From positions 348 through 64,347 of the forward strand of contig UCJH01000047.1 in the NCBI GenBank assembly GCA_900472785.1: a stretch of 64,000 bases of DNA, given 5' to 3'. The first letter of the stretch is position 1, and every line of letters begins with the position of its first letter. Source of the DNA: Hyphomicrobiales bacterium. GTDB lineage: Bacteria; Pseudomonadota; Alphaproteobacteria; Rhizobiales; Rhizobiaceae. The notes under the pieces are model-generated. The model ran no database searches and was not told where the DNA came from. It worked only from the letters and a program-made list of their open reading frames with translations. A program made the translations under genes and the position numbers. Positions 18,617 to 34,684 of this stretch are shown piece after piece.

Positions 18617-19678
18617 TTGTCAGCAACGAAAAACACGCAGGACGCGAAAGTCGCGGCTTCGCCAATTGAGCCTTCAGCACGATTAGCGACAACAGAAGCC
18701 GAGCAAGTGGTGGAGGAACAGAAGTTCTATCCGTCGGACCGTTCCCAACCTGCGATCGGTATCGTCTCTGACGAACTGTCGCGCGGCATTAATCCATTCG
18801 GCCTTATCGAAAGCGCCGGCGTGGCCGATGTCACGGATTCCATCGAGTCCATTGCTGCAAAGTTCGACCGGTTCGGTCTCGTTAAGGTGCGTCGTGTCTA
18901 TTCCCCTGAAACCTCTCGGGAACTGACCGAGCACTGTATCAAATTTTCCGGCCTGCAGCCGATGGATTTCAACAAAGCCAAAACGAAAAAGGAAAAAGGA
19001 GGCCTTGGCGGCGCTCCGGTCTTCAACGATCCTGTCTTCTGGCCTTACGCGGCGAACAAGAAAATCAAAGAAATTGTCGTCGCTCTTCTTGGCCAAAACT
19101 GCTTCGAATTTCGTTCCTTCGTTGCCGCGCACTATTCAGCGCGCGGACTTCATCGCGAATTCAATAAGCTGGTGGAAGACGATTCATCGCCCTATTCCGT
19201 GAAGAAGCCGGAAAAGCGTATTGTTCGCGTACAGCATTACTGTGGCATTTCGGGAGGGGCGTTCGGCTACATTCCTTTCTCGCACGATGAGCGGCTGTTT
19301 GCAGTGCAGAGCAAGCGCGTCGGCTTCAAGCGTGAAACGGAATGGTTTGACCGCCACCGCGACATACTGACGAATGCGCGCACGGATAAGAACTTTGTGG
19401 ATGCCGATGAGATCGAACGTTACATTTGCTGGTCCCATGCAGATCCGGGCGATGTTATCATCTCAAACCCGGCTATTTTTCACTGCGACGAATATCTGAC
19501 CGGTCCTCGCTATTTCTTGGTTTCCACCTATGCGGCGAGCGACGAAACAAGTCTGAATCTTGCAAAGGGAAATGCGAAGCTGTTCCCGGATGTCGGCGTG
19601 AAGTACTACAAGTACATGTCCGAGCAGGGTTTCGAGGGAAGCGCCGACATTCTGAGGGCCAACGGCGACATCGGCTAA
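18617..19678 (+). CDS. Phytanoyl-CoA dioxygenase (PhyH)-like 2-oxoglutarate/Fe(II) oxygenase
   Basis: 353 residues. The first 60 or so are low-complexity and hydrophilic. The core looks like a PhyH double-stranded beta helix: AAHYSARGLHREFNK with an HxE metal pair (H179, E181), PGDVIISNPAIFHCDEYLTGPRYFLVSTYA with the distal metal histidine H289 and the 2-oxoglutarate-binding arginine R298. Such enzymes hydroxylate small molecules, lipids or sugars. It starts at TTG 18617 with AGGGGAC upstream and opens the island just inside the IS5 relic. HxE instead of HxD is slightly unusual. A role in modifying the nonulosonate or its lipid carrier is a guess. Confidence 0.6.
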   Translation: MSATKNTQDAKVAASPIEPSARLATTEAEQVVEEQKFYPSDRSQPAIGIVSDELSRGINPFGLIESAGVADVTDSIESIAAKFDRFGLVKVRRVYSPETSRELTEHCIKFSGLQPMDFNKAKTKKEKGGLGGAPVFNDPVFWPYAANKKIKEIVVALLGQNCFEFRSFVAAHYSARGLHREFNKLVEDDSSPYSVKKPEKRIVRVQHYCGISGGAFGYIPFSHDERLFAVQSKRVGFKRETEWFDRHRDILTNARTDKNFVDADEIERYICWSHADPGDVIISNPAIFHCDEYLTGPRYFLVSTYAASDETSLNLAKGNAKLFPDVGVKYYKYMSEQGFEGSADILRANGDIG

Positions 19679-19864
19679 CAGTGCCGCGGTTAGGTCGTCC
19701 GAACAGGATCGTTTTAACGCTGGAAGAGGCGGCGGCATCAAGATGTGTCGCTATCAACGTCAAGCGCGGATGACAAATTTAAGCGCTTGGCGCCTACCTG
19801 TTTTTCCACTTTTCATGCGGTTCCGGTCTGAACCTCCGAAGTATCGGCTGTTTTTTAGAGCGAC

Positions 19865-19888
19865 ATCACATGAGAAATTTGCTGTGAT
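19865..19888. promoter_or_regulatory. Inverted repeat ATCACA-N12-TGTGAT
   Basis: A 6-bp inverted repeat in the 400-base gap before the ptmF-like gene. It could be a regulator site or a small hairpin. The rest of this gap (19679-20079) holds no convincing gene; a 60-codon GTG frame at 19901 lacks coding character. Confidence 0.3.
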
Positions 19889-20079
19889 CTAAGCAAAACC
19901 GTGAGTGGGAAAACAGTCAAACGATACGGCTCTATTGAAGAGCGCAGGAGCGGTCTGGTTTGGAAGAAGGTGACAATGCGGAAAGTTCCGGTGGGCGGTA
20001 GGTATACAGTCTTGAGCAAGAGAGTTTGGTCTTTAAAACGTTTGAGGCTTCATGTTTTGATTTTTGTTGGGCCCCTTCC

Positions 20080-21093
20080 ATGAAGAATTCATATTATCTC
20101 GTCATCGGCAGCGGCAGCATCGCGCGACGCCACATCAAGAACCTTAAGACCATTTTTCCGAATGCAGAGGTGGCTTGCATATCTGCGAGCGGGCGGGCGC
20201 TTACGCCGCAGGAATGCGACGCAGATACGGTTTTTACGTCGCTGGCCGAGGCCTTGGCGCATTGCAAACCCGATTTCGCCATTGTCGCTTCGCCCTCTCC
20301 ATGGCACCTGGCGCAAGTGCGGCAACTGGCCGAGGCAGGGGTTCCAAGCCTCATAGAAAAGCCGTTGGCGGACGATTTCAGTTTGGCATCAGCAGAAATG
20401 GATGCACTTCGCCCTCATGCTGACCAGCTTGAAGTCGCTTATAATTTGCGCTACCTGCCCTCAGCTCGGGAGATGAAGCGCCTTCTTGACGCGGGCGTGC
20501 TTGGCCGAATTCACAGCGTCTTGATTGATGTCGGGCAGTATCTGCCGGATTGGAGGCCGCAAAGCGATTACCGGTTGAATGTTTCCGCTCGCCGGGATCT
20601 TGGCGGCGGCGTCCTGCTGGAGTTGAGCCATGAATTGGACTACCTGACATGGCTGTTTGGCCGCTTCGAGCACGTGTATTGCGTCACCGGACAAAGCGGA
20701 TGCCTCGAAATCGATGTAGAGGATCGTGTTGACGCGGTACTAAGTCGTGACGATGGTCTGGTGATCACGCTGCATATGGATTTCCTGCAGCGCGTGGTCA
20801 CGCGCACATGCAAAGTGGTTGGCGAAAACGGCACATTGATTTGGAATCTCGCAACAAACTCAGTATCTTTGCTGGCTCCCGAAAATCAGTCAAAAGTGCT
20901 GTTCTCGGATGAGGCATACGACCGAAACGCGATGTATCTTTCCGAGATCGAGCGTTTTTCCCTTGTCGCAAAAGGGGAACTCAAGCCTCTTGTCAGCTTG
21001 GAGGACGCTCTTTATGTCTTGAGGCTGGTCGCTGCGATGAAGGCATCGGCGCAGGAACGAAAATCTGTTTCAATCGAGACTCTTCAACCATGA
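20080..21093 (+). CDS. Gfo/Idh/MocA-family oxidoreductase, PtmF-like
   Basis: 337-residue NAD(P)-dependent sugar oxidoreductase. It begins with a Rossmann motif (YYLVIGSGSIARRHIKNL), carries the EKP motif in SLIEKPLADD, and a C-terminal dimer domain with GGGVLLELSHELDYLTWLFG. It is followed with a 4-base ATGA overlap by a CMP-sugar synthetase and then an SDR, the same order as ptmF-ptmB-ptmA in Campylobacter jejuni, where these genes serve the legionaminic acid pathway. I started at ATG 20080 because the preceding codons do not match the family. The precise substrate is an inference. Confidence 0.75.
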   Translation: MKNSYYLVIGSGSIARRHIKNLKTIFPNAEVACISASGRALTPQECDADTVFTSLAEALAHCKPDFAIVASPSPWHLAQVRQLAEAGVPSLIEKPLADDFSLASAEMDALRPHADQLEVAYNLRYLPSAREMKRLLDAGVLGRIHSVLIDVGQYLPDWRPQSDYRLNVSARRDLGGGVLLELSHELDYLTWLFGRFEHVYCVTGQSGCLEIDVEDRVDAVLSRDDGLVITLHMDFLQRVVTRTCKVVGENGTLIWNLATNSVSLLAPENQSKVLFSDEAYDRNAMYLSEIERFSLVAKGELKPLVSLEDALYVLRLVAAMKASAQERKSVSIETLQP

Positions 21094-21770
21094 AAACATT
21101 TGCATTTGTTTTTGCCAGGGGCGGCTCCAAGGGGCTGCCGGGCAAAAACATCCGACCACTCGGCGGTGTTCCGCTCTTGGCGCATTCAATTCGTGCAGGG
21201 TTTGAAGCCGGCGTCGAACAGGTGTTCGTTTCGACGGATGACGCGGATATTGCGAACGTTGCGCGAGCCTATAACGCCGAGGTCATTGACCGTCCGCCGG
21301 AATTGGCGACGGATACGGCATCGGAGTGGCTCGCCTGGCAGCATGCCGTCCAGCACCTGCGCGAGCAGGGCAGAGATTTTGATGTGTTTCTAAGCCTGCC
21401 CGCGACAGCTCCACTGCGCAGCGTTGACGATGTCCGGCAATGCCTGCAGGCGCTGGACGATAAAACCGACGTCGTCGTTACCGTTTCGCCGGCTGCGCGA
21501 AGCCCTTACTTCAACATGGTCATCCGCGAAGCGAACGGATCGAGCCGTGTGGTTCTCGGTGACGCAGGCTTCAAACGCCGCCAGGATGCTCCTGAGGTCT
21601 ATGACATGACGACAGTGGCTTATGTGACACGGCCTGATTTTGTGATGCAGACGACGGGACTTTTTCAAGGCCGCGTCCGTTCGATCGTGGTTCCCAAGGA
21701 GCGTGCCGTGGACATAGACGACGCTCTTGATTTTCTCGTTGCCGAGGCTTTGTACAACAAATGTCAGTAA
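21090..21770 (+). CDS. legF: CMP-nonulosonate (acylneuraminate) cytidylyltransferase, LegF/PtmB/NeuA-like
   Basis: 226 residues. Activates a nonulosonic acid with CTP to the CMP sugar used by sialyltransferases. The nucleotide-binding N-terminus FVFARGGSKGLPGKNIRPLGG is diagnostic; further family elements are VSTDDADIANVA, DRPPELATDTA, LPATAPLRSVDDV and DIDDALDF near the end. It overlaps the upstream gene by 4 bases and the downstream SDR gene by 10, so all three are co-translated. The name legF follows from the LegB/C/G/H/I genes nearby rather than from residues that separate legionaminic from sialic acid. Confidence 0.85.
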   Translation: MKTFAFVFARGGSKGLPGKNIRPLGGVPLLAHSIRAGFEAGVEQVFVSTDDADIANVARAYNAEVIDRPPELATDTASEWLAWQHAVQHLREQGRDFDVFLSLPATAPLRSVDDVRQCLQALDDKTDVVVTVSPAARSPYFNMVIREANGSSRVVLGDAGFKRRQDAPEVYDMTTVAYVTRPDFVMQTTGLFQGRVRSIVVPKERAVDIDDALDFLVAEALYNKCQ

Positions 21771-22537
21771 TTGACCTGAACGGTAAAACGATTTTCGTCG
21801 CCGGTGCCGCCGGTCAGTTGGGTAAGGTGCTGTCACGCACCCTGCTGGACGCTGACGCTAACGTCATCCTGAACGATGTTAGCGATGCTTCCCTGACTCT
21901 GCTGGCGGCGGAATTAGGCTCGCCGGACAAACTGCTGACCATGGCTGGAAGCATTACCGACGCAGATTTCGTACAACGTCTGCTGAAAACTGGAACCGAA
22001 CGTTTCGGCAAAGTTGATGGTGCCGTAAATTGTGCTTATCCCCGCAACGCACAGTACGGCCGGAAGTTCTTCGATGTCGCTTTCGACGATTTTACCGACA
22101 ATGTCGGCTCCCATTTGGGGGCGTATTTCGTCTGCATGCAGCAATGCGCAAAATATGCGGTCGAGCGTGGAGAACATTTCTCTCTTGTGAGCATGTCGTC
22201 CATTTATGGTGTCATGGCGCCGCGGTTCGAGGTCTATGATGGCACCGCGATGACCATGCCTGTGGAGTATGCGGCGATCAAATCTGCTTTGCAGCACCTC
22301 ACTTCCTACGTCACCAAGTACACCAGCGGATCCCTGTTTCGCGCCAACTGTGTTAGCCCGGGAGGGATTTTTGCTCACCAGGACGAACGGTTTGTCGAGC
22401 GTTACGGAAGCTTCAGCCGAAAGAAGGGAATGTTGGATTCCGAAGACGTAACGGGCGCTGTGCTGTTTCTGCTTTCGGACGCTGCGCAGTATATCTGCGG
22501 TCAAAACATTGTCGTCGATGACGGGTTTTCACGCTAG
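21761..22537 (+). CDS. SDR-family oxidoreductase, PtmA-like
   Basis: 258-residue short-chain dehydrogenase. Cofactor motif FVAGAAGQLGKVLSRTLL at the N-terminus, SSIYG with the catalytic serine, and YAAIKSALQHL carrying the YxxxK pair. The C-terminal CVSPGGIFAHQDERF...YICGQNIVVDDGF is typical of PtmA-type flagellin-modification oxidoreductases. In Campylobacter PtmA acts with PtmF and PtmE in the branch feeding GDP-amino sugar to legionaminic acid. It ends a three-gene plus-strand operon that converges on the legC operon. Confidence 0.8.
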   Translation: MSVIDLNGKTIFVAGAAGQLGKVLSRTLLDADANVILNDVSDASLTLLAAELGSPDKLLTMAGSITDADFVQRLLKTGTERFGKVDGAVNCAYPRNAQYGRKFFDVAFDDFTDNVGSHLGAYFVCMQQCAKYAVERGEHFSLVSMSSIYGVMAPRFEVYDGTAMTMPVEYAAIKSALQHLTSYVTKYTSGSLFRANCVSPGGIFAHQDERFVERYGSFSRKKGMLDSEDVTGAVLFLLSDAAQYICGQNIVVDDGFSR

Positions 22538-22847
22538 ATATCCGGCAGAAATGTCGCTTCTGCGTCTCCCGCCTTGGGGGTGGATACCGACGTTTCGTTG
22601 GCCCATTTGCATATGGTCGCTCGCCACACATTGAAGCTTTGCGAGGCAGGCGGTAATCCGTCAACGCTTATCCGCAGGCCGCGGGCGCATCCGCCGCGGT
22701 TGCCTCGTTCTTGCTCAATGGGAGCGCCGCCGCGGTCTCTTTCGCCACTCTTGCGATCGCAACGGCGAAAGCTAAGACTGCCCACTGCAGCCTTAGCCGT
22801 CCAGCAGATTCGTCGCTTTCATAACGACAGATCTCTCATATTCCGCA
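22538..22847. other. Gene-free spacer between converging operons
   Basis: No gene supported on either strand. A short GC-rich dyad (ccgcgg repeated around gcgcatcc near 22678-22700) is present but there is no clear intrinsic terminator for either operon. The minus-strand reading around 22550-22690 faintly resembles an IS66 small ORF, too weak to call. Confidence 0.35.
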
Positions 22848-24014
22848 TCAGTTCAGGGCGAGGACCGCGCTGCTTGGAATGCTGACCAGCCGCTGCTCGA
22901 TGTCCCGGGCCACCGGCAGGGGCATGGAGGGATTTCCTTCATACATCGGCAGGTCGCACATCAGCGTCCAGCAGGGACGCGTCATCAAGCCTGCGTCATT
23001 CGTTGCCGCGAGGAAATCGTCGCGAGCGCCCGCGTCGTCGAGGATGACAGAGTTGAGCCAGTAATTGCTCTGGCTACCCGCTGGTTCAACGAAGAAGCGA
23101 AGGCCTTCGACCTTCGCAAATGCATCCTGATAGCGTGTTGCGAGGCGGCGCTTGGCGGCGACGAAGACCGGCAACTGCTGCAGTTGAGCACAACCCAATG
23201 CAGCGTTGATGTTGGGCAGACGATAGTTGTACCCCAGTTCGTCATGCCAGAAAGCCCAGCGATGCGGCCGCTTGGCGGTCGTTGTCAGGTATTTGGCACG
23301 GTCGCCGAGGTGCTCATCGTTGGTCAGGATCGCACCGCCGCCACCTGTGGTGATGATCTTGTTGCCGTTGAAGCTGGTGATGCCGATCAGGCCTCTAGCG
23401 CCCAGCGGGCGTCCGTTGGAGAGACTGCCAAGCGACTCCGCAGCATCCTCAACGACGGGGATACCCCATTTTTCGCTGACTTCGACCAGCCGGTCGATCG
23501 CCATCGGATGTCCGAAAGTATGCATCGGCACAACCGCGGCCAGCCGGCGGCCGGTATTGCGGTTGCGCGGTCCGTCCTCGCCGGGTTCGGCGATCTCGGC
23601 AAGCCAGGTATCGAGCGCGTCGGGGTCGAGGCCAAGCGTCTCCATGTTGCTGTCGACGAAGTGCGGAATGGCGCCGCAATAGGCGACGGCGTTGGCGGTG
23701 GCCGCGAAGGTCAATGCAGGCACCAGGACTTCGTCGCCCTGCTTTACGCCGGCGAGCATCAAGGCGATGTGCAGGGCTGCCGTGCCGTTGACGGTTGCGA
23801 CTGCTCGACGAACACCGAAGGCTTCCGCCAGCTCCTTTTCGAAACGATCGACATAGGCGCCAACCGACGAAACCCAGCCGGTGTCGAGGCAATCCTTGAC
23901 ATACTCCCACTCCGCGCCCGCAAAGCGTGGTTCGTGCAGGATGATCGATTCGCCATTGGGCGCCGCAGCGGCGCGCAGGGTTTGCACAGCGTGTGCGATA
24001 TCCAGCTTTGCCAT
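22848..24014 (-). CDS. legC: LegC-type PLP aminotransferase (DegT/DnrJ/EryC1/StrS family)
   Basis: 388-residue sugar aminotransferase, expected to aminate the 4-keto sugar made by LegB using glutamate. Family landmarks: LDTGWVSSVGAYVDRFEKELAEAFG, VNGTAALHIALMLAGVKQGDEVLVPALTFAATANAV, VEDAAESLGS, and the PLP-binding lysine K219 in SFNGNKIITTGGGGAI. The ATG at 24014 comes one base after the legB stop, so the two are translationally coupled; a longer upstream frame is just legB in another frame. It is the last gene of a long minus-strand operon. Confidence 0.9.
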   Translation of the reverse strand: MAKLDIAHAVQTLRAAAAPNGESIILHEPRFAGAEWEYVKDCLDTGWVSSVGAYVDRFEKELAEAFGVRRAVATVNGTAALHIALMLAGVKQGDEVLVPALTFAATANAVAYCGAIPHFVDSNMETLGLDPDALDTWLAEIAEPGEDGPRNRNTGRRLAAVVPMHTFGHPMAIDRLVEVSEKWGIPVVEDAAESLGSLSNGRPLGARGLIGITSFNGNKIITTGGGGAILTNDEHLGDRAKYLTTTAKRPHRWAFWHDELGYNYRLPNINAALGCAQLQQLPVFVAAKRRLATRYQDAFAKVEGLRFFVEPAGSQSNYWLNSVILDDAGARDDFLAATNDAGLMTRPCWTLMCDLPMYEGNPSMPLPVARDIEQRLVSIPSSAVLALN

Positions 24015-24015
24015 C

Positions 24016-25029
24016 TCAGATACCGTAGGTTTCGGCCTTGTAAAGGGCCAGGTTGCTCGGATTGCTGAACCATTCGATCGTTTCGCGAATACCGCGGGCA
24101 AAACCTTCGTGACCCGAATAGGATGGCTTCCAGTCGGTGAGCCGCTTGGCCTTGTCGATGCCAGCCCAAAGGCGGTCGACTTCGCTCAACTCCGGGCGCT
24201 GCCGCTGCTCTTCAGAAACGATCTGGGCGTTTACGCCCATGATTTCAATGATCGTCTTGACGGCGTCCTCGATCGAGATTTCAAAGCCACTGCCAAAGTT
24301 GACGACTTCACCCAGAACCTCTGGGCTTTCGGCCATGGCTTGGAACGCCTTGACGGTGTCGGCAACGTACGTGAAATCGCGCGTCGGGCTGAGCTTGCCG
24401 AGGCGAACTTCCTGCTTGCCGGCCGCAAGCTGGGTGATGATTGTCGGCAGCACCGCGCGCGTTGACTGGCGTGGGCCAAAGGTATTGAACGGCCGGATCA
24501 CCGTCACCGGCGTGCCAAAGGACCGGTAGAACGAGAGCGCCAGCTGGTCCGCGCCGATCTTCGAGGCCGAATAGGGAGACTGGCCGACCAGCGGGTGTTC
24601 TTCGGTGATCGGAACGAACTGGGCGGTGCCATAGACCTCGCTGGTCGACGTGTGAACGACCCGTTCGGTTTCGAGCAGGCGCGCGGCCTGCAGAACATTG
24701 AGCGTGCCCTTGATGTTCGTGTCGATATAGGTATCGGGCGAATGATAGGAATAGGGGATCGCGATCAAGGCAGCGAGGTGCAGCACGACATCGCAGCCGC
24801 GCATGGCTGTCGCAACTCCGTTTGGATCGCGAATGTCGCCGCTGAAAACCTCGAACGAATCCTTGACGTCCGGCGACACGCGGTCAAGCCAGCCCCAGGT
24901 GCCAAAGCTGTTGTAGAGCGAAAAAGCCCGCACCTTGAGGCCTTGGCGCACGAGGTGCTCGACCAGATGGGAGCCAATGAACCCGTCGGCGCCAGTCACA
25001 AGAATGGTCTTTCCTGACAAATTGGTCAT
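24016..25029 (-). CDS. legB: LegB-type NAD-dependent sugar-nucleotide 4,6-dehydratase
   Basis: 337-residue extended SDR. It has GADGFIGSHL at residues 13-22 for NAD, TSTSEVYG with the catalytic Thr/Ser, and Y153-x3-K157 in SPYSASK. In the legionaminic pathway LegB converts GDP-GlcNAc (or the UDP form in other organisms) to the 4-keto-6-deoxy sugar. The FSLYNSFGTWGWLD insert after the Rossmann start is characteristic of LegB homologues. Its ATG overlaps the stop of the upstream Gfo/Idh gene by 4 bases. Confidence 0.88.
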   Translation of the reverse strand: MTNLSGKTILVTGADGFIGSHLVEHLVRQGLKVRAFSLYNSFGTWGWLDRVSPDVKDSFEVFSGDIRDPNGVATAMRGCDVVLHLAALIAIPYSYHSPDTYIDTNIKGTLNVLQAARLLETERVVHTSTSEVYGTAQFVPITEEHPLVGQSPYSASKIGADQLALSFYRSFGTPVTVIRPFNTFGPRQSTRAVLPTIITQLAAGKQEVRLGKLSPTRDFTYVADTVKAFQAMAESPEVLGEVVNFGSGFEISIEDAVKTIIEIMGVNAQIVSEEQRQRPELSEVDRLWAGIDKAKRLTDWKPSYSGHEGFARGIRETIEWFSNPSNLALYKAETYGI

Positions 25030-26015
25030 GACCGGTTTTCTCCTTCGAAGTTCGAGCGGTTGCCGTCTCTGATGACGGTATAGTTCTTGAAAGCCTCTGC
25101 CTGGGTCGAAAGGCTCATCAGGCGGAGATCGGTATTGCCGGATAGGAACGCTTCGGTTTGTCGGTAAAGACCGGGCTTGAATTCCTTGTCGAGGTTATCG
25201 TCTATGGCCACCGCTTCCACCGCAAAACTCTGCTGGTTCTGAAGGAACAACTGTTCCATCGGCTGCAGAATAAGGCGGCTCTTCGCCGTCATGACCTCGA
25301 CACCCCAGCGACCCGGGGCGAGCCAGTTGGAATGGTAGGAAAAATCAGCCCCGGTGTCGGTCGTGCCGCAACCGGTGAAGATGGCACCTGCAGGGTGCCA
25401 GCCCAGGCCGCAACGGCTTTGAGCGACGATCGTATTCGGATGGCCGCCGAGAAAGAATGCCAGATCGATCACGTGGGTCGAATTGCCGAACAGCCAGCCC
25501 TCAAGCTCGGCCGGATCCTTGTCGAGTGCCTCGATCCGGGTGCGTGCTTCGGTGAAGTCGAACTTGAACGACAGCACGCCGCCGTCGGCGTCGATGATCT
25601 TGCGGGCGGCCTCGACCGACGCATAGAAACGACGGTTATAGGCGACATAGACTTCAGCTCCAGCGTTTTTCGCCACGAGGTCCAGCGTTTCGGCATCGGC
25701 CTGGTTGAGAGCAACCGGTTTTTCCACCAGCAACCGACGCACACCAGCCTTAATCAACTGCTCGGCGGCTTCGGCAAGATTTGTCGCACTGACAGCGACG
25801 ATCGCGGTTTCGGGTACCGTATTGAACCGCGAAAGCTGCTCAGGCAACGGGCCGTGGCCTGTTTCGATGCCCCATTCTCGGGCGAAAGCCTCGGCTCGTT
25901 CCGTGCCGCGTCCAGCAGCCAGGAACGGCTGCCCAAGCGCTTTCAGCACTTTGGCGTAGGCAGCCGACATTGCGCCGGTGCCGACAAGGAGCAGGGGTGT
26001 CAGCTGATCGGGCAA
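25026..26015 (-). CDS. Gfo/Idh/MocA-family oxidoreductase (first of a pair)
   Basis: 329 residues. Rossmann start LLLVGTGAMSAAYAKVLKALG, EKP motif in LLVEKPVALNQAD, and AYNRRFYASVEAARK as in sugar dehydrogenases of surface polysaccharide clusters. The TTG start at 26015 is supported by GGAGGA about eight bases upstream and overlaps the preceding gene by 16 bases. Role unknown: it may oxidise, reduce or epimerise the nonulosonate or one of its precursors, together with the next gene. Confidence 0.75.
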   Translation of the reverse strand: MPDQLTPLLLVGTGAMSAAYAKVLKALGQPFLAAGRGTERAEAFAREWGIETGHGPLPEQLSRFNTVPETAIVAVSATNLAEAAEQLIKAGVRRLLVEKPVALNQADAETLDLVAKNAGAEVYVAYNRRFYASVEAARKIIDADGGVLSFKFDFTEARTRIEALDKDPAELEGWLFGNSTHVIDLAFFLGGHPNTIVAQSRCGLGWHPAGAIFTGCGTTDTGADFSYHSNWLAPGRWGVEVMTAKSRLILQPMEQLFLQNQQSFAVEAVAIDDNLDKEFKPGLYRQTEAFLSGNTDLRLMSLSTQAEAFKNYTVIRDGNRSNFEGENRS

Positions 26016-26953
26016 GGGACGTCCTCCGAGGTAGAAAGGTTCAGTCTTCGACGGAACGCATCGAGGAACAGAGCATGCTGTGCCGATGACTGCTCGTAGG
26101 AGGGCAGGCGGCTTCCCTTGCCATCGATGATTTCGGTATAGAGATAAGGCATGCCGCTGACGAACAGCGTTTCGAATGTCTGTAGGTTCTCTTCTCCAGC
26201 GGCATTGCGATGGACGAGCTTTTTGGCTCCCTCCTCGACGCGCCAGCTTTGTCCGTTACCGAAGAAGGTGATGGAAACCGGCTCGCCCGGCGCACGGTCC
26301 TGGGTGATCGCGAGGGTGCCGCCGCCTGCCAGATTGCCGCGCAACGTGCCAAACAGATCGACGCATCCCGGGATGCGGGCAGGCTGCGGAGTGGGGTTCA
26401 GGTCGGCTTCATCGAGGGCGATGACACGGTCGCCCAGCACGTGTTCGGCAAGGTCGAGGAAATGTATAGCATTGGAACCGAGGTTCCATCCGGCGCCCTT
26501 GACCTCCATCGACAGGCCGTTTTGCGTCGCCAGGAGGTCGCGCAGCCGGTCATAAGCGGGAAAACCTCGGCGACCGCAGTTGACATAAGCGGGGATGCCA
26601 CGGTCCGTCAGGACCTGACCGACAGCGTCGAGATCGGCGCGCGTGGTAAACAGGACTTTCTCGAAGATGACGGCTTTCGGCGTGCAGCGGGCAAGCAGGG
26701 TTTCGAAGGCCGCACGGCGATGTGCCGCCGAGGTGGCGATGATCACCAAATCGGCGGTGGCTGGTACCTGTTCCATATCGTCGAGCACTGTTGACCCGTT
26801 TGCAAAACCAGCAACCAGCGCCTCGGCCTGGGCACGCGCTTCTGCGCCGGGCTCAACGCCGATGACACGCATTGGAACTCCGGCAGCAGCGAGGGCCTCG
26901 ATGTGCCGACGGCCGATATTGCCGCAGCCAACGACCACAATTGTTGGAATCAT
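26000..26953 (-). CDS. Gfo/Idh/MocA-family oxidoreductase (second of the pair)
   Basis: 317 residues with VVGCGNIGRRHIEALAAAGV for NAD(P) and a diverged EKP position (VIFEKVLFTTRADLD), so the usual catalytic proline step reads EKV. NCGRRGFPAYDRLRDLL replaces the AYNRR region of its neighbour. It overlaps the downstream oxidoreductase by 16 bases and the upstream sialyltransferase-like gene by 4. The altered motif may mean a changed reaction or a non-catalytic partner. Substrate unknown. Confidence 0.7.
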   Translation of the reverse strand: MIPTIVVVGCGNIGRRHIEALAAAGVPMRVIGVEPGAEARAQAEALVAGFANGSTVLDDMEQVPATADLVIIATSAAHRRAAFETLLARCTPKAVIFEKVLFTTRADLDAVGQVLTDRGIPAYVNCGRRGFPAYDRLRDLLATQNGLSMEVKGAGWNLGSNAIHFLDLAEHVLGDRVIALDEADLNPTPQPARIPGCVDLFGTLRGNLAGGGTLAITQDRAPGEPVSITFFGNGQSWRVEEGAKKLVHRNAAGEENLQTFETLFVSGMPYLYTEIIDGKGSRLPSYEQSSAQHALFLDAFRRRLNLSTSEDVPCPIS

Positions 26954-28176
26954 GCGGATATGACCTCGCTAATCAATGAATGAAAGAAAGTTTGCTCAGC
27001 CTGCCAATTGTGGCGGCTGGGCCAGGATCCCGTATGGCGCTTACCATAATAGTGCGACACGGCGGAAGTGTTGTGGTCCAGCGAATAGCCGAAAACCTGT
27101 CCCGGTGACAACTTTTCACCGACCTCGCTCTGCGTCCAGGCAAGCCCGATCAGGCCGGCACTCGGGGAGGCGTCAAGCGCTGCGAACATCCGTCCATAAA
27201 GGGCCGTCGGCACCAGCTCTATAGCCACGTCTCGATGCAGGTACGGTTCGAGAAGCTGGAGACCATTTGAAAATCGGTTCCTGATGTTGCAACCGGTCAG
27301 CACGACGAGGATGCCAGGCTGCGTCTCCCGCATGGGGATGTGGGTGAAATCGGCTGGACGGAACCATATGTCTGTTCGTTGTCCCAAGTCAGCTGATTCC
27401 ACGGCTGCGGCATGATTGTTGAACCGGATCACCAACTGGTGCGAGTCGATCACACTGCCGAGACGCCGCGCCTCAAGTGAGGGGCCATTCGCAACAACCG
27501 CTAGGTTTCCGGCGGACTGCTGGATCAACTGCACGAAGCGGTCTTCGAAACGGGAGAGATGGGCGGCGACTGCGCGTGCGCGCTCGGCCTGCGGAAGAAC
27601 GATCTTCCCATTGTCCGCCGCGGCGGCCAGAATCAGGTCCAAGTAACCTGTTGAAGACAGCGCTGACGGTTTGCTTCGTCCGATCCGGGCAAGCAGGTCG
27701 AATGCTTCCCTGCGATAACCTGCATCGTTGGCCAGCGCGGCTGCCCGCAGCAAAACGCGTTCTGACGTCTCTCCCTCCCGGATGAGGCGAGGAAACCATT
27801 CCATTGCCTCGTTCGCACCTTTTCGTTCCCACAACAGGTTGACAAGAAAGTTAAGCGCCTTCTGCGCCAAAACTGGTGGCCCATGGGAAACGATCGTCTG
27901 CAGCAGGGGCAGAGCGTCCGCCAAGGGCAGGAGCCCAAAGCGCGAGAGGCTCGCCACCTGCATCATCAATTCGGGATCATTCGGAGTGGCCGTGAGTGCA
28001 TGCCGCAGCGCGAGAGCCGCCTCTTCGAACTCACCCTGCTCATAGAGCCGCAGATATTTCTTACGATCCCGCCGACCGGGCGCACCTTCCATCCACCAGC
28101 GGACGGTTTGGCCGATCTTATGCAATCCATCTTCCAGACCAAGTCGGCCGAGAATATGTGGGTAAGTAGAAAACAT
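26950..28176 (-). CDS. Sialyltransferase-like glycosyltransferase (GT29 motifs) with helical N-terminal region
   Basis: 408 residues. Residues 35-215 are helical and TPR-like. The C-terminal half carries all sialyltransferase landmarks: motif L at 226-254 (VVANGPSLEARRLG, then VIDSHQLVIRFNN), motif S at 337-363 (SPSAGLIGLAWT, later QVFGYS), motif III HYYG at 375-378, and motif VS H389-x4-E394, whose histidine is the catalytic base in animal sialyltransferases. No signal peptide or membrane anchor is seen, so it probably acts in the cytoplasm. It sits in the operon with the nonulosonate genes and is the natural candidate to use the CMP sugar made by LegF. Family assignment is from motifs only. 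Confidence 0.75.
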   Translation of the reverse strand: MFSTYPHILGRLGLEDGLHKIGQTVRWWMEGAPGRRDRKKYLRLYEQGEFEEAALALRHALTATPNDPELMMQVASLSRFGLLPLADALPLLQTIVSHGPPVLAQKALNFLVNLLWERKGANEAMEWFPRLIREGETSERVLLRAAALANDAGYRREAFDLLARIGRSKPSALSSTGYLDLILAAAADNGKIVLPQAERARAVAAHLSRFEDRFVQLIQQSAGNLAVVANGPSLEARRLGSVIDSHQLVIRFNNHAAAVESADLGQRTDIWFRPADFTHIPMRETQPGILVVLTGCNIRNRFSNGLQLLEPYLHRDVAIELVPTALYGRMFAALDASPSAGLIGLAWTQSEVGEKLSPGQVFGYSLDHNTSAVSHYYGKRHTGSWPSRHNWQAEQTFFHSLISEVISA

Positions 28177-28322
28177 CTGGTTAGGCTATCCTGTTGCCGT
28201 CGCCATCGCCGAAATATCAGTTCTTTTTGGCGCTGCGATATTGCACAGTGACTTAATGGATGCATGGGTGAGTAGCAAGACTGGGCGCTTGCTGAACGGA
28301 ATCCCCACTGGTTGTGGTTGCG

Positions 28323-29006
28323 TCAAAACCTTCCACGCAACAACATGAAACCTTCTGCGGCCCGCGTGCCTGACGCCGCGCCACGTGTCATGGCCAAGGC
28401 ACGAAGGGCTTCCAGGCTACGCGGAAACGGAAACTCACCGATTTCATCTCCAAACATTGCCGTGATCCTCAGCTTTTCCTCAAGCTGCTCACTGATATCA
28501 ATGAAGATATTGGGATTGAAGATGTCACTCACGAACAACCCTGCGTCCGTCTCGGAAAGCGTTTCATAGACCAAAGTCCACCGAACCGAGGGATAACGGA
28601 ACCATTTGGTACATGCGGTTGCGGCAGCATGCACGACGTGGTGATCAGAGTGGGCATCACCACGATGGGGGATAAGGATCATTTCCGGCTGGATCGCAGT
28701 CACGACCTTGCCTATGCCGCCAATAACGTCGCCAAGCGGAAGGGTTTCGAGTTGGGCCGAGGGTAGATTCAACCGATGAACCCCGGCGAAACGGTACGCT
28801 TTCGCGACCTCGTCGATTTCGGTTTCACGACGGGTCACCTTCTCGGAAGGCCAACCCTGCTCGGTCGTGATGCCGGTAACGATCAGCCAGTGGATCGGCC
28901 GCCCAGCCGCTTGAGCCCGCAACAACAGGCCGCCGGCGCCGAGTGTCTCGTCGTCAGGATGAGGGGCTATGACCAGAATTGGGCCTTTTCCACTTTCCAG
29001 CAGCAT
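28323..29006 (-). CDS. PIG-L family N-acetylglucosamine-type deacetylase
   Basis: 227 residues. The zinc-binding AHPDDE motif lies at residues 14-20 (APHPDDE) and the second metal motif is HSDHH (about residue 118). LmbE/PIG-L enzymes remove N-acetyl groups from amino sugars or sugar conjugates. Its ATG shares one base with the legG stop (TGATG), so it is co-translated with the epimerase. In this cluster it could free an amino group of the nonulosonate or its precursor for another acyl group. That role is inferred. Confidence 0.85.
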   Translation of the reverse strand: MLLESGKGPILVIAPHPDDETLGAGGLLLRAQAAGRPIHWLIVTGITTEQGWPSEKVTRRETEIDEVAKAYRFAGVHRLNLPSAQLETLPLGDVIGGIGKVVTAIQPEMILIPHRGDAHSDHHVVHAAATACTKWFRYPSVRWTLVYETLSETDAGLFVSDIFNPNIFIDISEQLEEKLRITAMFGDEIGEFPFPRSLEALRALAMTRGAASGTRAAEGFMLLRGRF

Positions 29007-30175
29007 TATCGTCCTCCCTCAACCCATTTTTTATCGAGCAGGTGTTTACCAAGTTCAACATTGCCCAAGACCTCAGCTATGCGTTTCCCCGCCTTGCCGT
29101 CGCCATAGGGTGTCCTTTTTTTTGCGACCAGCGCGCGAAAGTTCTCGTCGGTCGTCGCTTTGGCAATTGCCGCTGCAATTTCCTGCGGATCGTAATCCGT
29201 GAAAATCACATTATCCCCATGCTCCCGGCCTCTTTGGCGTATGCCGATATTGACCACCGGCAGGCCCATGGTGGGCGCTTCCAAGATTCCCGCAGAGGAA
29301 TTTCCGACCATCACACGCGCGTGGCGCAGCATGTTGATGAACGCTTTTCGCTCCAGAAAAGTGAAAGCTTTCGCTTTCGGACAGCGCGCGATCAGTTCGT
29401 CGATTTCCAGGCTGATCGCTTTGTTGCCGGGATCGGTATTGGGGGCCATCACGGCAATGTTCAGCCCGCTCGCCTCAAGCACGCGGGTGATCGACGCCAT
29501 ATGCGCTCTGGCTTCGGAAAAATCAGTGATCGTCGGGTGATAGAGCAGGACCGCATAGGGTTCGCTATTCCACTTAACGCCGAGTGCGGCCTCGACTTCA
29601 ATTCGCGTCATGTCCGGCGTTGCGTGAATCCGATCGAGACCCGATGCGCCGGTCACGTGAATGCGCCAGGGCTCCTCGCCGAGTTCGCGCAGGCGGCTGC
29701 CGCTAAGCTCGGTTGTCGCCATGTGGAGGTGGGACATTTTGGAGACAGCGTGCCTGACAAGATTGTCGACGTTGCCGTCGTCGGCATGATCGCCACCGCC
29801 GACATGCACGACCGGGATATGATGATAGATCGCTGCGAGCGCGCCGGTCATCACTTCTTCCCGATCACCCATCACGACGAGGAAATCAGGTGTTTCGCGG
29901 GCGAAAAGGTCGGTGAGGCCCGCAAGTTGCAGGCCCATTCCCTTGACGCGTCCCCCGAGGCCGTCTGACGCAAGAAGAGAGTCTATCCGAGCGACGATCC
30001 GATGACCGTCCGCTTCGATCTGACGAACAGAATGGCCATGCAGGCCGGTCAGATGCGCACCGGTGACGATCACACCTTCATTGAGGCCAGGGTGCGCGCG
30101 CACAGCTGCAATGATCGGTGCAAGGATATCGTATTCGGAGCGAATCCCGGTCAGGAAATGAACTGTTCTTGTCAT
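29006..30175 (-). CDS. legG: Hydrolysing UDP/GDP-sugar 2-epimerase, LegG/NeuC-like
   Basis: 389 residues with GT-B-like epimerase fold. GIRSEYDILAPII at the start and NSSAGILEAPTMGLPVVNIGIRQRGREHGDNVI near the end are typical of the NeuC/LegG branch. It epimerises C2 and hydrolyses the nucleotide from the diacetamido sugar, giving the free ManNAc-like six-carbon substrate of LegI. The presence of this NeuC-type enzyme rather than a PseG-type hydrolase is the main argument for a legionaminic-like instead of a pseudaminic-like product. ATG 30175. Confidence 0.9.
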   Translation of the reverse strand: MTRTVHFLTGIRSEYDILAPIIAAVRAHPGLNEGVIVTGAHLTGLHGHSVRQIEADGHRIVARIDSLLASDGLGGRVKGMGLQLAGLTDLFARETPDFLVVMGDREEVMTGALAAIYHHIPVVHVGGGDHADDGNVDNLVRHAVSKMSHLHMATTELSGSRLRELGEEPWRIHVTGASGLDRIHATPDMTRIEVEAALGVKWNSEPYAVLLYHPTITDFSEARAHMASITRVLEASGLNIAVMAPNTDPGNKAISLEIDELIARCPKAKAFTFLERKAFINMLRHARVMVGNSSAGILEAPTMGLPVVNIGIRQRGREHGDNVIFTDYDPQEIAAAIAKATTDENFRALVAKKRTPYGDGKAGKRIAEVLGNVELGKHLLDKKWVEGGR

Positions 30176-30360
30176 GTTGCTTTCGCTTAGTAGAGGTCGG
30201 AATGCAGTGTCAGAAGGCGTAACCGGTAAATATCCGTTAAATTGCCCGCCACGACGGGGGAGTTTTGACGCCGAGGCAACCGAGGGGCATGAGTGAACGC
30301 AATTCAGCCGCTTCGATAGCTTGGCGCTGCATCGTCAACGGGCAATATCGATCACCCATA

Positions 30361-31008
30361 TCACTCCATGACAGGAAATTGCGATGTTCGACGGGTTGCT
30401 TTGAGATAGGAGCTGTCTGGCAAGTGGGTGGCGACCACGGTTCCTGCCCCGACGAAGGCGCTACGCCCAACGCGGATATCCGGCACGATGACAGCGCCGG
30501 CGCCGATAAAGGCATGGTCTCCTACGTGAACATTGCCGCAGAGCACTGCCCCGGGCGCTATCATCGCTCCGGCGCCGATGCGGCAGTCATGATCCACCTG
30601 GGCTCCGGTATTGATGATGGCTGCGGAACCGATGACGCAATCCGCCTGTAAAATCGCGCCTGCCATGATGACGGCCCCGGCATCGATTTGGGCAGAAGGG
30701 GAAACGACCGCGGCAGGATGGATCAGCGATGGAACCCGAGCGCCGGCGGCTGCCAGTCTGATAAATTCACGCCAGCGGATATCGCCCTTGCCGATGGCGG
30801 GGAACAGGTCGTTCTGCTCGAGCCAGGAGGAATCTGCCAGCAGATCGACACCGTCGCCCAGTATGGGAGCACCGAGATTTTCTTCACCGCGTTCATCCGC
30901 AGGCGCCAGGAAGCCCGTAACATGCCAGCCAATCGCGCGCGCGAGTTCGGCAACGACCTTGGCATGACCGCCAGCTCCCAGGATTATCAATCGGCCCGGA
31001 TTTGTCAT
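30361..31008 (-). CDS. legH: NeuD/PglD-family sugar O- or N-acyltransferase, LegH-like
   Basis: 215 residues. An N-terminal Rossmann-like part (LIILGAGGHAKVVAELARAIGW) precedes a left-handed beta helix of hexapeptide repeats from about residue 90 (HPAAVVSPSAQIDAGAVIMAGAILQADCVIG and following), as in PglD, LegH and NeuD. It probably N-acetylates the 4-amino group made by LegC, using acetyl-CoA. It overlaps legI by 4 bases. A 185-base gap separates it from legG downstream; I see no gene there. A role as O-acetyltransferase of the final sugar cannot be excluded. Confidence 0.82.
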   Translation of the reverse strand: MTNPGRLIILGAGGHAKVVAELARAIGWHVTGFLAPADERGEENLGAPILGDGVDLLADSSWLEQNDLFPAIGKGDIRWREFIRLAAAGARVPSLIHPAAVVSPSAQIDAGAVIMAGAILQADCVIGSAAIINTGAQVDHDCRIGAGAMIAPGAVLCGNVHVGDHAFIGAGAVIVPDIRVGRSAFVGAGTVVATHLPDSSYLKATRRTSQFPVME

Positions 31009-32054
31009 GTCAGATCCTCAAGTGTGATGAGCGTGTTGGCGGCAACAGGTTGGCCTAAAGTCCGGCCGGCAAGCAAGCCCTCCATGCGGGGTGGCAAGCC
31101 CGTGCCCGGCCGCAGCAAAATGAGGTCATCGGCGATAAGCTTGTGTCCGGCCGGCAAGTTCCGGCGGACAGCAACGCTCCTCCGTCCGAGTTGCCGGGCG
31201 GAAGTTTCGCAGGGCTGGGGGGCTTTTACCGTGCCGCCCAGTGCTTTTTCGACGCCACGAATGCCGGCAACCATCGCCTCGAATTCATGGGGTTCAAGTG
31301 AAGCCTTGTGGTCGGGACCTGGCAGATTGCGGTCGAGCGTAAGATGTTTTTCAATAATACAGGCGCCGAGCGCAACAGCAGCGATCGAAACGGCGATACC
31401 GTCGGAATGATCGGAATAGCCGACAGGCAACCCCGTTATTTCAGAAAGCGTCGGAATAACACGAAGATGAAGCTCTTCAAATGGCGCTGGGTAGCTGCTT
31501 GTGCAGTGCAGAAGAGCGATATCCTCACTGCCGGCCTTGCGAAGCGTCTCCACGCCAAAGGCGACTTCTTCAACGTCGCACATGCCGGTTGACAGAATGA
31601 CAGGACGCCGCTTCGATCCCATATGCGAAAGATAGGACTGCGAAACGCAATCGGGGGACGGAACCTTGAAAGCTGGTACGCCAAGCCGGTCGAGCATGTC
31701 GATGCTTTCTAGGTCGAAAGGCGATGAAAGAAAAATGATACCCTCGGCACGGCACTGTTCCAGAATGCGAACATGCGCTGTTTCATCGAGTTCCAAGGCT
31801 TTCAACATGGCATGTTGATCGGTCTGGTTGGTATTCGCTTTCTGGTAGGCGGCCGTTGGCGTGGCGCGAACCACCAGCTGATCGGCCTGAAACGTCTGGA
31901 ATTTCACCGCATCAGCGCCGGCAGTCCGGGCGGCACTGACCATCTTCGCAGCCAACTCCGGATCACCATTATGATTGACGCCTATTTCCGCGATGATGAA
32001 ACACGGGTTTTTTCCACCGATAACTTTATCGGCGATTGAGAATATTTTGGTCAT
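31005..32054 (-). CDS. legI: Nonulosonic acid synthase, LegI/NeuB-like
   Basis: 349 residues. Condenses the hydrolysed six-carbon sugar with phosphoenolpyruvate to give the nine-carbon acid. TIM barrel with FIIAEIGVNHNGDPELA at the start, DAVKFQTFQ, SSPFDLESIDMLDRLGVPAFKVPS and SDHSDGIAVSIAAVALGA; the last 60 residues are an antifreeze-like SAF domain (RRSVAVRRNLPAGHKLIADDL) that closes the active site of the partner subunit. Its ATG overlaps the stop of the 877-residue gene by 4 bases. This is the pathway's defining enzyme. Confidence 0.92.
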   Translation of the reverse strand: MTKIFSIADKVIGGKNPCFIIAEIGVNHNGDPELAAKMVSAARTAGADAVKFQTFQADQLVVRATPTAAYQKANTNQTDQHAMLKALELDETAHVRILEQCRAEGIIFLSSPFDLESIDMLDRLGVPAFKVPSPDCVSQSYLSHMGSKRRPVILSTGMCDVEEVAFGVETLRKAGSEDIALLHCTSSYPAPFEELHLRVIPTLSEITGLPVGYSDHSDGIAVSIAAVALGACIIEKHLTLDRNLPGPDHKASLEPHEFEAMVAGIRGVEKALGGTVKAPQPCETSARQLGRRSVAVRRNLPAGHKLIADDLILLRPGTGLPPRMEGLLAGRTLGQPVAANTLITLEDLT

Positions 32055-34684
32055 GCTAGATACTCGCGGAATGGTGCCGTTACAAAAAGTGACGACGCAA
32101 GTTCATCACTCCGACGGATCGTTTCTGGGCCTTTGGCGATGACGTCATCAACGATGGCGGTCAGGCGGTCGAATGTGGAGTTGTCGATGAGCTCCGGATT
32201 GTTTCGTACGAACTCATCGACCCAGGTCGGGGATTCCGGGCCTGCCGTCAAGGCTTCCGAAACCACCTTTGTGATCTGGTCGCTGTTCGTGCAGAACGGA
32301 ACTCCCAGTATGTCGTGCCATGGCATTGGGTAATCGACGCCATCTGTACTGACAATGGCGACGTTTCGCTCCAATATCGCGGCTTCCAAGGCCGTCACGC
32401 TATAGCAATTCAAGACAACATCGCTTGCGATCAGCAGGTCTTTAATGTCGATGTCCGCCACGTAGCAAATGTGGCCGGCATTTTCCTCGGCGATGATCTG
32501 GCGGTAGCGATCAACGTGACCGGGACCCTCTTCAGGATGTGCTTTGAGAATGATACGCGCCGGCATATCTATCGCCTTGACGCCGCGAATAATCATTCTC
32601 CAGACGGGAAGGATGTGGTCGGCGGGCATCGGTTGAGTTGGGAAGGAAATAATCGGAGGGTCGCCTGCATGTAGCCCGATTCGCTTACGGGCCTCCTTGC
32701 GCGAATTAAGTGGGCTATACCCAACCGGCCGCATGATCCGCGGCGAGCCGAATGTGTAGCAGCGAGCGCGGGGAATACCGAAATAACGGTCATACTCTGT
32801 CGCAAAGTAATCGGAATAGACGGCTGCGTAATCAGTAGGCACCGTGCCGTAGCGGCAATAGGCGGCATTAATGCAGTGCGGTTCGATTGCAATGGATGGA
32901 ATACCGATGGCACGAGCGATCGTTGCAAATTGCGTCGTGCGAGGCGAGCGAATGGGGGAAACCACGATCGCAGAATAATCGTTCTCTTTCAGGTGCGCGG
33001 TAATGGTGCAAGCATTGCCGAGAACGTGCAGGACCGCCTCGGGAAGACCCTCGGTCAGCATGGAATCAAGGACTGACCTGAGGCATAGATCAGTCTTGTG
33101 CGTCTCCAACAATTTTCTAGCCGTATCGGCCACCGCCAATAGAAAGAAGTTGGAAAATTCTTTTGCGACTGCTTTTCCCGGTTCCTTTGCTGCCACGCTG
33201 AGCAAGATTGCGTTGCCGCCTTTTGACATGCCGTGCAGAGGGGCATCCTTCTGGACCTGTCTGACGGTCTTCTGCAGATTGGCCGGGTTGCCCTGAGGCG
33301 CCAGGATGTCAACATCGAATCGATCGCTTAAATGAGTCGCCATCTGCGCAGATGTTCCGATATATGCGCGCGATTCGTGTGCGACAAAGGCGATGCTTTT
33401 CCGATCAGTTGACCGGTCGACGGCTTTTCGTTTTTTGGGGACGGCGGAGGAGGTTAAATAGGCCTCGACCGCTTTCGTTGATGGACCCGCTCTCCCTGCA
33501 AACACCTCCTCCAACGCGGCAATTTTTCCGAGGATCGGATCCTGGCTTCCAACAATTGCACGGCGTTGCATATCGGCGATGCGAGAGGCGAATTTGGTCG
33601 CGGTCTTGACCGATTCCGTCCGGCAGCATCCCTTGATGCGCGGGTTTTGCCAGAGTTCCGGGCCGGAGAAAAAGAAACGGAACAGCTCGAAACTTTCGCC
33701 GAAAGACACGATGACGCTGTCGAAGGACGGATCAAGCACGGCCCGATGAATTGCTTCGATGCGCAGCGCCTTGAAGAACAGTTTGTCACTGACCTCGAGT
33801 ACCAGGTCTCTGTCCAGGTCGGATATGCCGGGAACGAATTTCTCGATCCATGGTGCGCCTTCGATGAAACTCTTCATCAAGGTCTCGGCAACCTTCAGGG
33901 TTTTCTGGTGAACATCGAAATACTGTTGCTGGAAGCGGTCGATTCTCGAGCGCCCGTGCTCGATCTCTATTTCCACGCCAGGCAGAACCGCCCGAATGGC
34001 CTCAAGATCGATCTTGCCGTAAAGATCCCCGTACTGGAGGAGCGTAACTTTTTCTGCGCCAAGCGTAAGGGTTCTGATCGCGGCTGGCGAAAGTTTCCCA
34101 TCCATCACGATCAGACGGCTCTTGCATGCTTGTGGTTTCATGTAATCCGCTGAGTGGGACTCCGCGTGCGAAGTCGTCTCATAAAGAGGTCTCGGGGTAA
34201 GCGACCGAATGATCGCAGTCCAGTCAACCAGAGATGCTGCCTCTTTATTCTCACCATACTCAGTTAGAACCTTAAGAGCCATCTCGATATCGCCCCGCTC
34301 AAGAAGAGCGGAAACCAGCGCAATGGACGTGTTTTTGTTTTTTTTTGCCCTGGCAGAGATCGCCGGCATCGACTTGGACAGCGTATCGATGTCGGGGCGG
34401 CGCACACCAGTGGCTATCAACGTTATACCATAGTCAAGAGCTCTCGGCTTGGCGGAGAGATAGTTGACTACGAAGCTATTTGCAGCCTCTTGGCCAAATC
34501 GAGATATAATCTGTTCATGCAGCCACAGGATACGCGCACGCGTATGTCTTACGAGAGGAGAATGGATAAAGTATTTCTGTGCAGCATTTGGTCCAAAAAA
34601 TCGCAACAATAGATAAAGTGTCAGGTGAGAAAAATTTCTCTCTATTTTCCCCATATAATTGATAAATTCTTTCAAAGAGCTCAT
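32051..34684 (-). CDS. Large putative glycosyltransferase, 877 aa
   Basis: The longest gene of the island. Residues 1-170 are helical, 175-400 form a separate alpha/beta part, and the C-terminal half (about 430-860) looks like a GT-B glycosyltransferase related to CDP-glycerol transferase and capsule synthesis folds: KSIAFVAHESRAYIGTSAQMATHLSDRF at its start, SFPTQPMPADHILPVWRMI, the phosphate-contact motif LKAHPEEG, and DIKDLLIASDVVLNCYSVTALEAAILERN near the end. No membrane helices. It overlaps legI and is thus part of the pathway operon. It may polymerise or transfer the nonulosonate. Family not recognised with certainty. Confidence 0.6.
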   Translation of the reverse strand: MSSLKEFINYMGKIERNFSHLTLYLLLRFFGPNAAQKYFIHSPLVRHTRARILWLHEQIISRFGQEAANSFVVNYLSAKPRALDYGITLIATGVRRPDIDTLSKSMPAISARAKKNKNTSIALVSALLERGDIEMALKVLTEYGENKEAASLVDWTAIIRSLTPRPLYETTSHAESHSADYMKPQACKSRLIVMDGKLSPAAIRTLTLGAEKVTLLQYGDLYGKIDLEAIRAVLPGVEIEIEHGRSRIDRFQQQYFDVHQKTLKVAETLMKSFIEGAPWIEKFVPGISDLDRDLVLEVSDKLFFKALRIEAIHRAVLDPSFDSVIVSFGESFELFRFFFSGPELWQNPRIKGCCRTESVKTATKFASRIADMQRRAIVGSQDPILGKIAALEEVFAGRAGPSTKAVEAYLTSSAVPKKRKAVDRSTDRKSIAFVAHESRAYIGTSAQMATHLSDRFDVDILAPQGNPANLQKTVRQVQKDAPLHGMSKGGNAILLSVAAKEPGKAVAKEFSNFFLLAVADTARKLLETHKTDLCLRSVLDSMLTEGLPEAVLHVLGNACTITAHLKENDYSAIVVSPIRSPRTTQFATIARAIGIPSIAIEPHCINAAYCRYGTVPTDYAAVYSDYFATEYDRYFGIPRARCYTFGSPRIMRPVGYSPLNSRKEARKRIGLHAGDPPIISFPTQPMPADHILPVWRMIIRGVKAIDMPARIILKAHPEEGPGHVDRYRQIIAEENAGHICYVADIDIKDLLIASDVVLNCYSVTALEAAILERNVAIVSTDGVDYPMPWHDILGVPFCTNSDQITKVVSEALTAGPESPTWVDEFVRNNPELIDNSTFDRLTAIVDDVIAKGPETIRRSDELASSLFVTAPFREYLA

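Follow-up and report, generated by a model that had tools for sequence, protein, structure and literature searches.

The known animal sialyltransferases belong to glycosyltransferase family 29 (GT29), the vertebrate members of which are Golgi type II membrane enzymes with a disulfide between sialylmotifs L and S; both traits were treated here as vertebrate features and not as family-defining ones. One plant member, GALT29A, presumably has galactosyltransferase activity. Described below is a GT29 gene within a legionaminic acid cluster that also carries KpsC/S-type and ATP-binding cassette (ABC)-2 export genes and lies on an island in a 64,000-nucleotide stretch of rhizobial DNA (contig UCJH01000047.1, positions 348 to 64,347; hereafter the window); it is this context that sets the gene apart. 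The source is described as a soil bacterium. The legionaminic acid (Ptm/Leg) pathway of Campylobacter, to which PMC7591256 refers, presumably shares LegB, LegC, LegG/NeuC, LegI/NeuB, the cytidine monophosphate (CMP)-sugar synthetase and a PtmE-like CBS-domain nucleotidyltransferase with this cluster. Unlike that pathway, the cluster here has a PIG-L deacetylase, two linked Gfo/Idh/MocA oxidoreductases and capsule genes.

Of the sialyltransferase families, GT29 is classed as an inverting one (PMC9587256). Petit et al. (2018; PMC5811610) described bacterial members, 19 of the 23 bacterial sequences being alphaproteobacterial; a 2023 review took these up, and public NCBI records already annotate bacterial GT29s. 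The novelty in bacteria implied by the first-pass annotation of the window is smaller than claimed. The 2018 sequences, from Proteobacteria, share the GT29 sialylmotifs with the protein studied here, and the available portion of that report gives sequences and a phylogeny and describes no legionaminate operon. In Escherichia coli, a GT29-GT107 protein was tied in 2026 to K6, a probable poly-Kdo capsule (Kdo, 3-deoxy-D-manno-octulosonic acid; PMC13171606), and a further GT29 lies in a kps locus (L012, L056). Both are likewise GT29s of ABC-exported KpsC/S-type loci, but their probable donor is Kdo, no Leg genes are among the features shown for the kps locus, and the L012 protein is 23.8% identical to ours. 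This kps locus, with acyltransferase, GT29 and GT2 genes, was present in 7 of 5426 genomes (6 chromosomes, 1 IncFIA-replicon plasmid). The plant protein RCKT1/MGP2 is also a GT29 and a proposed user of a CMP-ulosonic acid beyond sialic acid, and differs as a Golgi enzyme that acts on pectin with Kdo as donor (PMC11288761). Caulobacter FlmG is, like our protein, an alphaproteobacterial fusion of a tetratricopeptide repeat (TPR) N-terminus to a nonulosonate transferase, but it has a GT-B fold, transfers pseudaminic acid and acts on flagellin (PMC7591256). Searches of the open-licence literature found neither a report of a legionaminate locus with a GT29 nor a biochemical study of a bacterial GT29.

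The GT29 reading frame, which encodes 408 amino acids, lies on the minus strand; the same interval read in the same frame on the plus strand was interrupted by stops. The protein matched PF00777 in two stretches with 43.3 bits (gathering score 23, E 3.8e-11), a score far beyond chance that marks it, by sequence, as a clear but divergent GT29 member. An NCBIfam scan gave no match. Membership of GT42 or Maf was considered and rejected, as Pfam gave GT29 and TPR families alone up to E 1. The sialylmotifs occur in the order claimed by the first-pass annotation: motif L at ~223-272, motif S (ASPSAG 336-341 and FGYS 362-365), motif III (HYYG, 375-378, beginning with H375) and motif VS (H389/E394). 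Among 40 aligned bacterial GT29 domains, the column of H389 held H in 39 and a gap in 1, and that of E394 held E in 38, Q in 1 and a gap in 1; motif III was the most variable sialylmotif among the bacterial members.

The closest sequence in the PDB was human ST6Gal1, matched over motif L only (E 0.0066). When a profile built from 15 bacterial GT29s was searched against the PDB, ST3Gal1 (E 4.9e-20), ST6Gal1 (3.4e-14), ST6GalNAc2 (1.3e-13) and ST8Sia3 (~1e-11) were recovered, and GT29 proteins filled the first 8 places among the 14 distinct sequences listed. In the ST3Gal1 alignment, H-N-W-x-x-E of the bacterial profile stood opposite H-D-G-D-F-E of the chain. Similar results were observed with the predicted structure, for which the 14 best of 50 structural matches listed were all GT29 sialyltransferases, the fold on which the first-pass annotation had staked its claim; a correspondence of H389 and E394 to the known catalytic residues is suggested by their pairing in the profile alignment and agrees with the ends of the structural match ranges. 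The structural matches listed contained no GT42 enzyme or other bacterial sialyltransferase, a result that excludes nothing. The protein has the fold match, motif order and VS H-x4-E in common with the four vertebrate enzymes and, unlike them, has a TPR-like N-terminus, a single cysteine and no predicted membrane helix. The vertebrate-type membrane anchor was not seen, and the disulfide between motifs L and S is impossible because the whole protein has that single cysteine. In agreement with the earlier description of a soluble protein with a TPR-like helical N-terminus, no membrane helix was suggested (top 19-residue Kyte-Doolittle mean 1.36), and the N-terminus was predicted to be helical and TPR-like, with a TPR_19 match below the Pfam cut-off (E 1.6e-4).

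The neighbouring genes encode a legionaminate-type pathway (Table), as the placement in a nonulosonate operon had anticipated: LegB, LegC, NeuC and NeuD scored above their cut-offs, NeuB was recognised by Pfam, and the CMP synthetase by Pfam only. Co-transcription with the cluster is plausible: the stop of the GT29 gene overlaps the start of Gfo1 by 4 bp (26950-26953), whereas a gap of 146 bp separates the GT29 gene from the upstream PIG-L gene. The order GT29-Gfo1-Gfo2-LegB-LegC was also found in five other loci, in which the intact GT29 copies were down to ~40% identical and the GT29 frame was broken in two. The copies of L032 and L033 were each 86% identical, that of L033 ending early amid many broken frames in its cluster; that of L034, on a contig nominally assigned to Arenimonas by its bin, was 68% identical, and that of the S. 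mexicanum plasmid (L009/L048) ~40-41%. In L049, from a related member of the order, only a C-terminal GT29 frame (16571-16945) was recovered, by profile, and the gene of the 877-amino-acid protein (Table) was reduced to a 58-residue match (~10220-10393), while the sugar genes were matched over nearly full length.

This 877-amino-acid protein accompanies GT29 in L032, L033, L034 and L048. Among ten proteins compared in L034 and L048, these two were the least conserved (68 and 41% for GT29, 56 and 40% for the 877-amino-acid protein, against 95 and 81% for LegB). In L032 the values were 86, 71 and 98%, respectively, and NeuB (85%) and NeuD (86%) were as divergent as GT29. The nonsynonymous to synonymous rate ratio (dN/dS) of the GT29 gene was 0.13 with L032 and 0.17 with L034, indicating that it is constrained by purifying selection.

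The link to nonulosonate genes was surveyed in 36 bacterial GT29 loci, several of them near copies or short-flanked. Within the available flanks, 8 loci had NeuB; 15, those 8 among them, had a CMP-sugar synthetase-like gene (by an iterated profile that may have drifted in L039, L044 and L047), and 10 had a KpsC/S-like gene. The counts omit L050 (the same place as L045), L007, L008, L031 and G1038, as well as 11 weaker-match genomes of the 18 from the phylum scan (G308, G331, G354, G407, G446, G476, G486, G501, G596, G602 and G674). A Leg-type pathway stood beside GT29 in all five clade members examined (the source, L032, L033, L034 and L048).

By analogy with solved GT29s, the protein, with its TPR-like N-terminus, is read here as a transferase that uses CMP-legionaminate with inversion and would build an ABC-exported polymer, a reading to which a probability of roughly 0.62 is given. 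The enzyme would be cytoplasmic, would bind a CMP-activated ulosonic acid in the cleft of motifs L and S, and would transfer the sugar with inversion, H389 acting as the general base. We infer that the donor is most likely a CMP-legionaminic-acid-type sugar supplied by the LegB, LegC, NeuC, NeuD, NeuB and CMP-synthetase genes and that the sugar is most likely added to a lipid-anchored polysaccharide that is still being extended and leaves the cell by KpsC/S-type ABC export, while the helical N-terminus would probably dock the enzyme to a partner. As no CMP-ulosonate route other than the legionaminate type was recognised in the island, and NeuB-linked GT29s occur on three branches of the GT29 tree, legionaminate transfer appears the likeliest reaction, with a KpsC/S-type, ABC-exported polymer as the likeliest product. 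The first-pass annotation was right in its observation and family, and its donor hypothesis is a good and testable one.

Several observations weigh against this reading. The model of the protein was middling, with a predicted local distance difference test score (pLDDT) of 69.6 and values below 50 at residues 368-387, which include motif III. The top Foldseek row in one search was an O-GlcNAc transferase (E 1.9e-4), and SPINDLY was among the matches in both structural searches; both are read as reflecting the TPR part of the model alone. By raw counts, NeuB and a CMP-sugar synthetase were both missing from the available flanks of 21 of the 36 loci, which rules out a universal link between GT29 and nonulosonates in bacteria, and NeuB was absent from 11 of 28 GT29-bearing genomes or records (3 of these 11 being plasmid records only) and from 5 of 7 further GT29-bearing genomes. 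An ABC ATPase, KpsE and KpsD or another outer-membrane exporter were not seen among the island open reading frames (ORFs), where no dedicated search was made, the rest of the genome not being searched. Plant members of the family have other donors as well, RCKT1 being proposed to transfer Kdo and GALT29A being named as a galactosyltransferase (PMC11288761), and for the capsule GT29s of E. coli the evidence favours Kdo. It is conceivable, though we consider it unlikely, that GT29 transfers Kdo or another ulosonic acid into the polymer and another enzyme adds legionaminic acid: RCKT1 is required for Kdo in rhamnogalacturonan II (PMC11288761), and the features shown for the E. coli kps locus include kdsB but lack nonulosonate genes; on the other side, the Leg-type pathway is kept beside GT29 in all five clade members examined and linkage to NeuB recurs on other branches.

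The 877-amino-acid neighbour could itself be the legionaminate transferase, or a polymerase, with GT29 making a different linkage or starting the chain. The C-terminus of its S. mexicanum orthologue matched PF04464 above the cut-off (31.9 bits), a weak match to NCBIfam BFO_1060 was obtained below the cut-off (E 4.9e-11; no paper was found when the literature was looked up by that name), and the gene travels with GT29, both being remnants in L049. However, GT-B homology is uninformative on the donor, and the model (pLDDT 41.0, three sequences) was too poor for a search; this assignment of roles is also regarded as improbable. Both enzymes may share a donor, in which case it need not exclude legionaminate transfer by GT29, and the joint decay in L049, a single case, fits the two acting together. 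Attachment of legionaminic acid to a protein such as flagellin, held by the TPR-like part, would parallel FlmG, in which a flagellin-binding TPR N-terminus is joined to a pseudaminate-transferring domain (PMC7591256). The TPR-like N-terminus of our protein agrees with this, but the FlmG transferase domain is GT-B and not GT29, capsule-type genes (PF05159, ABC-2 permease) are present and none of the 21 island ORFs scanned had a flagellar Pfam match, which leaves a protein acceptor rather improbable. A decayed or non-catalytic gene, as the broken L049 copy and the early end of the L033 copy might suggest, is very hard to reconcile with an intact frame of 408 amino acids, retained motif residues, the low dN/dS and open orthologues in L032, L034 and L048.

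GT29 genes were sparsely distributed. A close copy was present in 3 of 26 genomes of the genus, including the source, and a distant match in a fourth. PF00777 was found in 2 of 289 genomes sampled from the class, the 408-amino-acid query gave matches in 9 of 397 sampled from the order, and the bacterial GT29 profile gave 18 of 398 from the phylum, some weak. One GTDB contig scan gave 16 GT29 loci in Proteobacteria, Actinomycetota, cyanobacteria and Gastranaerophilales. In a tree of 37 bacterial GT29 domains from several phyla, the clade with the source protein was supported at 99/99, deeper forks being unsure owing to long branches (L049 and one fragment each of L007 and L047 were dropped, L031 was under the score limit, and L033, L039 and L050 were left out). 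Transfer from eukaryotes, which the first-pass annotation had proposed to examine by phylogeny, was unsupported: the best PDB match was at E 0.0066, against 40-86% identity to the closest bacterial relatives, and a recent eukaryote-to-bacterium transfer finds no support in these comparisons. All sequences in the tree are bacterial, which makes its root provisional. Phage carriage was rejected, with no GT29 match at E 0.01 in 50,697 phage records and no PHROG at E 0.01, and none of 5 GT29 pattern matches on viral contigs was confirmed.

Other GT29-like proteins were also observed. On another contig of the source genome (C116), a 211-amino-acid protein (L031, 1021-1656) scored 19.8 bits with PF00777 (cut-off 23, not reached); it has a motif-L-like stretch and H-x4-E near its end, and a urease gamma subunit gene lies nearby; weak motif-L matches were seen in two further genomes of the family (G596, G674). 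GT29 was fused to a polysaccharide pyruvyl transferase domain in L041 (9311-11470) and L075 (8452-11838), both above the Pfam cut-off, and joined to DUF4422 and GT8 in a single chain of Gastranaerophilales (L038, 148-2877). Two adjacent GT29 genes per genome occurred in two genomes of one genus of the order (L074, L075).

The distance between the two genes flanking the cluster was 28,631 bp here, against 2,410-2,894 bp in the 25 other genus members (in G017 and G018 one flanking match was split and the distance was measured from one piece); the bounds mark the extra DNA relative to G001. The stretch with the left direct repeat resembles IS5-family (ISRel11-like) insertion sequence (IS) elements from rhizobial plasmids and is read as the remnant of one, part of which recurs near the right end. 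The cluster has probably moved, since two other genus members carry it at a different site, their flanking genes being ~2.5 kb apart and, in G015, ~45 kb from GT29. Among the 21 island ORFs scanned, the 877-amino-acid and KpsC/S-type proteins were the only other candidate transferases, and two ORFs had no Pfam match. The KpsC/S-type transferase and the ABC-2 permease of the island agree with an ABC-exported capsule locus. We take the CBS-domain nucleotidyltransferase to be PtmE-like, the plus-strand oxidoreductase PtmF-like and the short-chain dehydrogenase PtmA-like. With a PIG-L gene and the Gfo pair in the cluster, the nonulosonate may be a modified one, and the MaoC-type dehydratase might supply a 3-hydroxyacyl group for its N-acylation. 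For a redox-epimerase role of the Gfo pair, a comparison with EpaA/EpaB (PMC12053666) was uninformative, as these belong to different domain families.

Table. Features of the island and its cluster in window coordinates
Feature	Position	Strand	Evidence or remark
Island, 26.2 kb	17699..43915		the same flanking pair encloses no such island in the 25 other members of the genus
107-bp direct repeat, left copy	18004..18110	+	within IS5-family-like stretch
Gfo/Idh/MocA oxidoreductase	20026..21093	+	
CMP-nonulosonate synthetase	21090..21770	+	PF02348 E 1.2e-19; nearest NCBIfam PseF 124.9, under cut-off 205.7
Short-chain dehydrogenase	21761..22537	+	PF13561
LegC aminotransferase	22848..24101	-	TIGR04181 523.6 bits, cut-off 420 (scanned as 22848-24068)
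LegB NAD-dependent 4,6-dehydratase	24016..25029	-	TIGR04180 512.6 bits, cut-off 475
Gfo2, second Gfo/Idh/MocA oxidoreductase	25026..26015	-	PF01408
Gfo1, Gfo/Idh/MocA oxidoreductase	26000..26953	-	PF01408; GT29 neighbour also in relatives' loci
GT29 glycosyltransferase, 408 aa (putative)	26950..28176	-	~6-220 helical, TPR-like (predicted); ~221-405 GT29 domain
PIG-L family deacetylase	28323..29006	-	PF02585
NeuC/LegG-type 2-epimerase/hydrolase	29006..30175	-	TIGR03568 363.2 bits, cut-off 235.9
NeuD/PglD-type sugar acetyltransferase	30361..31008	-	TIGR03570 198 bits, cut-off 160.8
Nonulosonate synthase NeuB/LegI	31005..32054	-	PF03102 E 4e-93; TIGR03569 397.7 bits, ~2 under cut-off 399.65; PseI 284.6, under 340.25
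877-aa protein, GT-B-like C-terminus, second candidate glycosyltransferase	32051..34684	-	PF04464 18.7 bits, cut-off 22.1
CBS-domain sugar-1-phosphate nucleotidyltransferase	34798..36054	-	PF00483 + PF00571
KpsC/KpsS-type capsule protein	36213..37271	-	PF05159 E 1e-35
GDSL/SGNH hydrolase	37420..38448	-	PF13472
GNAT acetyltransferase	38445..39527	-	PF13527
MaoC-type dehydratase gene, near GNAT gene	39823-40296		no match in L032-L034
ABC-2 type export permease	42113..42916	-	PF01061 47.3 bits, cut-off 26.9
107-bp direct repeat, right copy	43717..43823	+	89% identical to left copy

The bacterial branch of GT29 is poorly understood, and a sugar substrate not yet shown for the family may be found here. 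An intact, soluble-looking GT29 beside a complete CMP-nonulosonate pathway would be a convenient subject for studying which donors the family accepts and how it arose, and the protein, if active, might serve as a tool for legionaminic acid attachment. The island points to movement of such capsule genes between rhizobial replicons. Only tentatively is the wider proposal made that these proteins are the first GT29 legionaminyltransferases, TPR-anchored and forming a two-enzyme polymerase with the 877-amino-acid partner for a legionaminate-based rhizobial capsule on an IS-flanked island; if true, it would fit a history in which GT29 arose in bacteria as a family of transferases for CMP-ulosonates in general and was only later used for sialic acid by animals.
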